From a virus: a DNA stretch of 21,256 bases. Both the position numbers and the translations under genes were made by a program. Below, in pieces: positions 14,677 through 16,265 of the stretch (position 1 is its first letter; each line of letters begins with the position of its first letter). The stretch spans positions 1-21,256 of IMG/VR virus record IMGVR_UViG_3300023220_000268; one strand, 5' to 3'. Below the pieces are notes generated by a model. That model was not told the DNA's origin, made no database searches, and saw nothing but the letters and a program-made list of their open reading frames with translations.

Positions 14677-15987
14677 ATGCAATTAAACCAATCCACTAGC
14701 CCCGTCTATACTCACGAAGGCGGCAAAGCCAAACATATCTCACCATTGCAGGAGTTACGCAGGACTTTATTATCTTGCATGTTGTGGGAAGGTACCTTTT
14801 ATGAAGACGGCGAATCTATTGCAGATCGTATTCGAGATCTAAGCAAAAAGGTTAAGCCAGAAGATATTGCCATACTGATTGTTGAGGCTAGGACTAGTTA
14901 TAAACTACGCCACGCGCCTTTATTTTTAGCCGTAGAATTAGCGCGGAACCACACGGGTAAGATGGTAGGAAAAACTATCACGAATACAATCTGCCGTGCG
15001 GACGAATTAACCGAGTTCTTAGCTATCTATTGGAAAGACGGAAGATGCCCTTTGTCTAAGCAAGTGAAGCTCGGCCTTGCAAATGCGTTCCGTAAATTTA
15101 ATCGATATCAATTATCAAAATATAATCGTGACAATAAAATTAAATTGCGCGATGTTCTGTTTCTTTGCCACGCCAAACCAAAAGATAAAGAACAGGAAAC
15201 GGTCTGGAAGGAATTAATAGAGGGCACGCTTACGGCCCCGGATACATGGGAGGTAAGTTTATCCGGTGGTGCGGACAAGAAAGAAACTTTTGAACGTCTG
15301 CTACGGGAAAAGAAATTAGGCTATATGGCCTTATTGCGAAACCTTAGAAATATGGCGGATACGGGCGTCAATGAAACTCTTGTTTTTGACGCGTTAGAAA
15401 ATGGTGCTGCAAAGAGCAAAGCCTTACCGTTTAGATTCTTATCTGCTGCGCATGCAGTCCCACGATGGGAGCTACAAATTGACAAGGCAATGCAGTTGGC
15501 CGTTAATGGACTTGAAAAAATTATCGGTAAAACAGTCCTTTTAATTGACTCAAGTTGGAGCATGATCGGGACAAATATATCGTCAAAAAGTGACTTGGAT
15601 CGTCTCGATGCCGCGAAAGCGTTGGCTATTTTAGCGGTAGGCGTTTTTACATATTGCCGTGTGTTTGTGTTTAGCGACAAAATAGAAGAGATTGCTCCAC
15701 GCAAAGGCATGGCTTTAGCCGATGCAATTGAAAATTCCGTCCCTCATGGCTGCACCCGTCTGTCTTATTCTGTTAAGCACATAAATGACAACGTCGATTA
15801 TGATCGAATCATTGTTTTTACGGACGAACAAAACACCGAGGATTCTTTGCCTGTCCCAAAAAACAAAGGCTATATGATTAATGTCGCGCCATATAGGAAC
15901 GGTGTCGGTTATTATGACTGGACGCATATTGACGGATTCAGTGAGGCTGTAATAGATTTTATCGTTGCACGAGAAGCAGGAGTTTAA
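14677..15987 (+). CDS. TROVE-domain Ro60-like RNA-binding protein with VWA domain
   Basis: A 436-residue homologue of Ro60/Rsr. Start ATG 14677 is preferred over in-frame GTG 14614 because GAGGA stands 8 bases upstream and the region before it is structured RNA. The ring-shaped HEAT-repeat TROVE domain covers about residues 20-285: LRRTLLSCMLWEGTFYEDG, IAILIVEARTSYKLRHAPLF, YQLSKYNRDNKIKLRDVLFL followed by the family motif CHAKPK, then LGYMALLRNLRNMADTGVN. The VWA domain follows with an intact metal site: DSSWS (D291, S293, S295), T360 in HGCTRLS, and D383 in the family-typical FTDEQ. Known Ro proteins bind Y RNA and damaged or misfolded RNAs, and in bacteria can tether PNPase. Here it is the main gene of a cassette splitting hub and spike genes, under its own promoter. 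Its role for the phage is unknown. Confidence 0.92.
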   Translation: MQLNQSTSPVYTHEGGKAKHISPLQELRRTLLSCMLWEGTFYEDGESIADRIRDLSKKVKPEDIAILIVEARTSYKLRHAPLFLAVELARNHTGKMVGKTITNTICRADELTEFLAIYWKDGRCPLSKQVKLGLANAFRKFNRYQLSKYNRDNKIKLRDVLFLCHAKPKDKEQETVWKELIEGTLTAPDTWEVSLSGGADKKETFERLLREKKLGYMALLRNLRNMADTGVNETLVFDALENGAAKSKALPFRFLSAAHAVPRWELQIDKAMQLAVNGLEKIIGKTVLLIDSSWSMIGTNISSKSDLDRLDAAKALAILAVGVFTYCRVFVFSDKIEEIAPRKGMALADAIENSVPHGCTRLSYSVKHINDNVDYDRIIVFTDEQNTEDSLPVPKNKGYMINVAPYRNGVGYYDWTHIDGFSEAVIDFIVAREAGV

Positions 15988-16265
15988 TGCCAATGACTGA
16001 GATAATGAGAGAAGTAGATAAATCTACATTAATAGAAATGTTCAATGATGAAAAATTAGTTGCGTTTCAACTTTCAAAATCGGTCGAAAATGAAAAGATG
16101 ATACGGGAATGGGAATCAAATAAAAATAATACAATTGAATTATCCGTGCTTGACGAGTCTGGTAAAACTGAAATATTTACAGCAGCAACATTCGTGTCAA
16201 GTGAAAACATAGGCGGAAATATTAAAATTATATTTCGTTGCAGCCCAAAACAGCAGCATGATTAA
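15987..16265 (+). CDS. Truncated tail-tube paralogue in the TROVE cassette
   Basis: A 92-residue protein whose start ATG 15987 overlaps the TROVE stop (TAATG), with CAGGAG just upstream (alternative ATG 15993 has better spacing). Residues about 10-90 align with residues 45-129 of the tube protein at 9586. Shared blocks are VENE, REW.SN.NN, EL, SG.T.IFT.A, GNI...F and a final P.Q, about 26 identities over 60 positions by eye. The N-terminal 45 residues of the tube protein (first beta strands) are missing. It is thus a diverged partial copy, not a second complete tube subunit. It could cap, nucleate or modulate tube polymerisation, or be a relic or adapted interaction domain; none is shown. No nucleotide-level similarity remains, so the copy is old or came from another phage. 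Confidence 0.75.
   Translation: MPMTEIMREVDKSTLIEMFNDEKLVAFQLSKSVENEKMIREWESNKNNTIELSVLDESGKTEIFTAATFVSSENIGGNIKIIFRCSPKQQHD

Follow-up and report, generated by a model that had tools for sequence, protein, structure and literature searches.

A truncated tail-tube paralogue in an inserted gene block behind a Ro60-like gene of a Mu-like phage

Why does a phage that encodes a full tail-tube protein also carry part of a second one, and what might such a fragment do directly behind a Ro60-like gene? The window (the whole stretch of DNA analysed, 21,256 nucleotides) is a 21-kb viral fragment with head and contractile-tail genes in a Mu-like order, the head and tail gene order of Mu serving for comparison. 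In it, a short ORF (15987–16265, plus strand, 92 aa) follows a gene for a Ro60-like protein with TROVE and vWA domains (14677–15987, plus strand), which starts at ATG 14677 with GAGG upstream or possibly at GTG 14614. The TAA stop of the Ro60-like gene (15985–15987) shares one base with the ATG of the short ORF (TAATG), and a Shine-Dalgarno sequence, AGGAG, lies 4 nt 5′ of this start. The analysis below leads us to regard the short ORF as ordinary in origin and mildly surprising in its context.

Homology to the C-terminal two-thirds of the tube protein

The full tail tube protein (9586–9975, plus strand, 129 aa), with a predicted Mu-tube-like fold, represents the parent family of the short ORF. 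BLASTP aligns the two over tube residues 59–129 with 29 of 71 residues identical (41%, E = 7e-13), and the shared residues picked out in the initial annotation are essentially those seen in the alignment. Relatives of the tube were gathered, a profile was made without the paralogue, and the six-frame ORFs of all 94 loci were then searched. The paralogue was detected with E = 2.8e-6 and a score of 28.1 bits, against 10.6 for the top of 5000 shuffles, and it also gave a weak match (E = 0.015) to PHROG_185 (tail tube). Its identity is 29–43% to near tubes and 15–32% to distant tubes. Tube residues 1–43 are absent, close to the 45 residues initially given as missing. Three indels further separate the paralogue from the tube: a 6-residue insertion, a 1-residue deletion and a 4-residue deletion. 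The insertion falls inside KIGMVKF, the most conserved motif of the tube family (K-x-G-M-V-K-F), in which the K and the G are also replaced.

Across the six-frame ORFs of the 94 loci each tube was detected once, and the paralogue is the sole second copy. We considered whether its missing N-terminus was hidden in another frame and rejected this, as the six frames show no other tube-like ORF. In one locus (L072, 1316–1702) the tube gene was detected as two pieces because a single in-frame stop codon (KRD*KS), perhaps a sequencing error, interrupts it at the position of a conserved Trp.

The predicted structures point in the same direction. The paralogue model (pLDDT 72) forms a beta-beta-alpha-beta-beta-beta core, with strands at residues 15–19 and 22–30, a helix at 33–44 and strands at 50–55, 61–75 and 78–85. 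The tube model (pLDDT 65) begins with three extra strands and a long low-confidence loop and then continues into the same core. The complete tube fold is a beta sandwich that includes these N-terminal strands and this loop; the paralogue model contains the core only. VIA-align placed the full tube nearest to that of Mu (107 residues aligned at rmsd 4.0, Z = 11.5), and the same Mu tube chain aligned to the paralogue with Z = 6.7 and rmsd 3.0 over 81 residues. The top row for the paralogue was 4qxz (Z = 9.0), a functionally uncharacterised Staphylococcus protein, and the next rows were mostly tube, Hcp, tail-tip and cap proteins at moderate Z scores of 6–8. Foldseek alone returned nothing below E = 0.001 for either model, and searching the PDB by sequence yielded nothing relevant for tube or paralogue; the structural evidence therefore consists of VIA-align, with tube folds making up most of its rows. 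Because these Z scores are moderate and the predictor worked from an alignment of tube sequences, the agreement in fold is support rather than proof. With the fold test partly circular in this sense, profile similarity to the tube was nonetheless found and the predicted folds share their core. The proposal that this ORF derives from the C-terminal two-thirds of a tube protein is thus borne out by sequence, profile and predicted fold, and we conclude that the ORF is a genuine homologue of that region.

An inserted gene block between hub and spike

Four kinds of tail gene in the window were named by order and by sequence read by eye (sheath at 8006, chaperone at 9999, tape measure at 10679, and wedge genes after the spike), and a DNA_circ_N gene (12133) lies between tape measure and hub. 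The gene for the hub protein (Mu gpP-like, 13370–14470) and the spike/baseplate V-like gene (16943–17488), both on the plus strand, form the left and right flanks of a segment at 14471–16942. Of 19 distinct contigs from related phages, 18 lack this segment and have a hub–spike gap of −37 to +56 b, against 2476 b in the window; in L085, the closest relative, whose hub is 87% identical, the junction is filled by 589 b of other sequence. As hub and spike genes are neighbours in relatives and are separated here by an insertion, the paralogue sits in a small inserted gene block, or moron, that those relatives lack.

Read from the hub side, the block contains a promoter-like site, then a Y-RNA-like element and the Ro60-like gene and, after the paralogue, three small ORFs: one rich in Cys, one of 57 aa, and one that is rich in Pro and has a membrane segment. 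The elements up to and including the 57-aa ORF lie on the plus strand. The promoter-like site (14476–14503, TTGACA-16-TATGAT, 11 of 12 positions) stands just 5′ of the Y-RNA-like element and is the best in the region, where nine such sites were found against 7.7 expected, no excess over shuffles. The Cys-rich ORF (16258–16623, 121 aa) overlaps the end of the paralogue by 8 b with no Shine-Dalgarno sequence seen, and it has no relative in phages or viral contigs, so a second copy of the cassette was not found. The 57-aa ORF (16628–16801) resembles a ribbon-helix-helix protein by eye only and gave no family match. Small Pro-rich ORFs with a C-terminal membrane segment, perhaps lysis-related, precede the spike gene both in the window (16758–16946) and in L085 (5728–5946), with different sequences. 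Base composition changes within the block: GC is 35% over 15987–16945, against 43% for the window, and the paralogue has 32% GC and 27% GC3, against 43% and 44% for the tube gene, while the composition of the Ro60-like gene is not unusual. Another insertion within a tail module occurs in L057, where a minus-strand ORF (10551–10967), by eye like a fragment of a zinc-ribbon transposase, lies between the tube and chaperone genes.

The Y-RNA-like element (GTGGCGAAGAT...GATACTTC...GCTTGTTCCC; 14509–14582, plus strand) has a consensus structure of 15 predicted pairs, 11 of which show compensatory changes among eight viral sequences; Rfam 15 gave no Y RNA match in the window. One to three copies of this element, GTGGCG[A/T]AGAT...TACTTC, occur 5′ of Ro60-like genes in otherwise unrelated viral contigs: outside the window, it is found upstream of TROVE in L005–L009, L011, L013–L020, L026, L028, L029, L031, L032, L034, L041, L043, L050 and L054. 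A second class, in which a tRNA-like T-arm (GGTTCGAATCC) follows TACTTC, is reminiscent of tRNA-mimic Y RNAs and lies upstream of TROVE in L054, L018, L011, L019, L031, L043 and L009. In a Xanthomonas phage record (L001), a tRNA-Thr is annotated at 13876–13943, just upstream of the TROVE gene. The Ro60-like gene of L023 (1811–3073) lies near genes 41–48% similar to the head-side genes of the window, on the opposite strand, an arrangement indicating that these phages acquire Ro60-like genes at two or more positions.

We also examined about 50 other viral TROVE loci, some of them near-identical, for the pair formed by the Ro60-like gene and the paralogue. In none does a tube-like ORF follow the TROVE gene, and the downstream genes vary between these loci. 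The pair is therefore not a conserved unit.

Origin of the copy and constraint upon it

Phylogenetic analysis places the paralogue inside the near tube clade on a branch of 4.4 substitutions per site without a resolved sister; neither a grouping with the tube of the window (p-AU = 0.44) nor a position just outside the near tubes (p-AU = 0.29) is rejected. On this sequence comparison, the paralogue was most likely derived from the tube gene of this phage group, either the phage's own copy or that of a relative. As a query it gave no match in phage and plasmid records, nor, as a single sequence, in viral contigs. A tube search of bacterial genome contigs returned one distant tube and nothing else, and PADLOC defence-protein models matched neither the paralogue nor its neighbours. 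A longer duplication including the neighbours of the tube gene was rejected as well: in a tblastx comparison of the cassette with the rest of the window, the only match with E < 0.01 was the tube, and a second weak match (E = 0.089) was the antisense of the tube stretch.

Constraint on the two copies differs sharply. The tube has an omega of 0.05, whereas the branch leading to the paralogue has an omega of 0.2–1.1 for most attachment points and choices of base frequencies, with a few fits at 0.1 and one at the boundary. These estimates derive from a single paralogue sequence, no allele or second example having been found, which precludes direct measurement of selection. An omega of 1 was rejected only in some settings, with 2dlnL reaching 14.5 for paralogue base frequencies and some attachment points. 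Retention of tube residues is not significantly higher at tube-conserved sites (18 of 43) than elsewhere (14 of 40), suggesting that the constraints of tube assembly no longer apply. Judged from these substitutions, selection constrains the paralogue far less than it does the tube.

The replacements in the paralogue fit neutral drift with stop codons forbidden. At the inferred 0.4–0.63 neutral substitutions per site, however, its 86-codon stretch stayed free of stops in only 1–6% of simulations, and each of the three indels has a length divisible by three. The frame has therefore probably been maintained, for some purpose other than building tubes. The protein may have taken on a new and loosely constrained job, or coupled translation of the next ORF may depend on the frame.

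Possible roles and comparison with known systems

The proximity of the Ro60-like gene had suggested that the paralogue docks this protein or its RNA to the tail. The two genes are adjacent and overlap translationally, which speaks for a dock or cofactor that brings the Ro60-like protein or its RNA to the tail, but this reading is very improbable: about 50 other viral Ro60-like genes lack a tube-like ORF behind them, their downstream genes being locus-specific, and the Y-RNA-like element paired with the Ro60-like gene from upstream makes a better partner. A minor virion part that initiates or caps the tube, or serves as an adaptor, at the hub–spike end of the tail would suit the position of the paralogue between hub and spike genes and the recurrence of tube-like folds in tail terminators, tail tips and baseplate proteins. 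Against it, relatives that share the tube, hub, spike, wedge and other baseplate genes have no copy, their hub gene abutting the spike gene, which speaks against a conserved role as the initiator or cap initially proposed; the tube fold is incomplete, with three strands and the loop missing; and the paralogue belongs to an inserted cassette, where it follows a Ro60-like gene and lies in DNA of differing composition. We consider a virion part unlikely, and the paralogue is probably not a working tail part.

A close rival of the reading that we prefer is that formation of the cassette captured a tube gene, of which the ORF is what remains. Its protein would be inert, and the frame would stay open because translation of the ORF at 16258 depends on a coupling that a stop would break. 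That ORF overlaps the paralogue and lacks a Shine-Dalgarno sequence, as this explanation would have it, and the drift-like substitutions, the several attachment points at which omega = 1 is not rejected and the lack of clear preferential retention of tube-conserved residues all agree with an inert product. On the other hand, the paralogue has a good Shine-Dalgarno sequence of its own, an open frame with three in-frame indels is improbable under simple decay, some attachment points with paralogue base frequencies favour an omega well below 1, and the downstream ORF that it is supposed to serve has no known relative and is of unproven value. An inert remnant is thus quite possible.

Our preferred reading, to which we give a probability of roughly 45%, is that the paralogue is a tube duplicate, truncated and rapidly diverging, which is carried in an accessory cassette and whose product stays out of the virion; if functional, it would most likely be a monomeric tube mimic. 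The cassette would have acquired a duplicate of a tube gene of the phage group's own kind as its second gene, behind the Ro60-like gene, to which its translation is probably coupled. The product would retain the central helix and the surrounding strands. Because the N-terminal strands and long loop are missing and the conserved motif is broken, it should not build tubes, and it probably acts outside the virion. If the paralogue is functional, a non-assembling tube mimic is its most likely role: as a monomer it could bind the partners of tube subunits and either poison tail assembly of related competing phages or serve as a decoy for a tube-sensing defence. The fuller version of this proposal, in which a monomer-locked mimic poisons the tubes of superinfecting relatives or occupies a tube-sensing defence while co-expressed with a Ro60/Y-RNA particle, is rather doubtful.

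Were interference with tube assembly or sensing correct, a phage would have truncated its own structural gene into an interference or anti-defence factor, which would also provide a simple dominant-negative probe for contractile tails; mimicry would make a phage structural gene a weapon or a shield. As a mere passenger, the ORF would instead illustrate clearly how accessory cassettes take up and retain pieces of structural genes.

Among known proteins, the Mu tail tube protein (PDB 9ki1, 9lj8, 9khy) matches both the full tube and the paralogue structurally; the paralogue, a second and cassette-borne copy, differs in having neither the N-terminal third nor the conserved context of KIGMVKF. The Hcp/tube superfamily, including Hcp paralogues, shares the predicted core fold with many structural matches, but the paralogue is truncated and, judging from the model, would not be expected to form rings. 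Tab is a prophage-encoded tail assembly blocker in Mu-like Pseudomonas phages that works through the C-terminus of the tape measure and is not known as a tube mimic (PMC10884400). Like the paralogue, it is a small accessory protein of Mu-like phages rather than a conserved tail structural protein, with a possible effect on the tails of competitors; since Tab acts via the tape measure, it is a precedent for the effect and not the mechanism, and we claim no sequence similarity. DSR2 senses monomeric tube protein and is blocked by the phage protein DSAD1 through allosteric inhibition (PMC10981675). That system offers a parallel in monomeric tube protein as a defence trigger and in small antagonists carried by phages, although the phage of the window has no known link to DSR2. 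Tab and DSR2 are therefore precedents for what the paralogue might bring about, not evidence that it acts in the same way.
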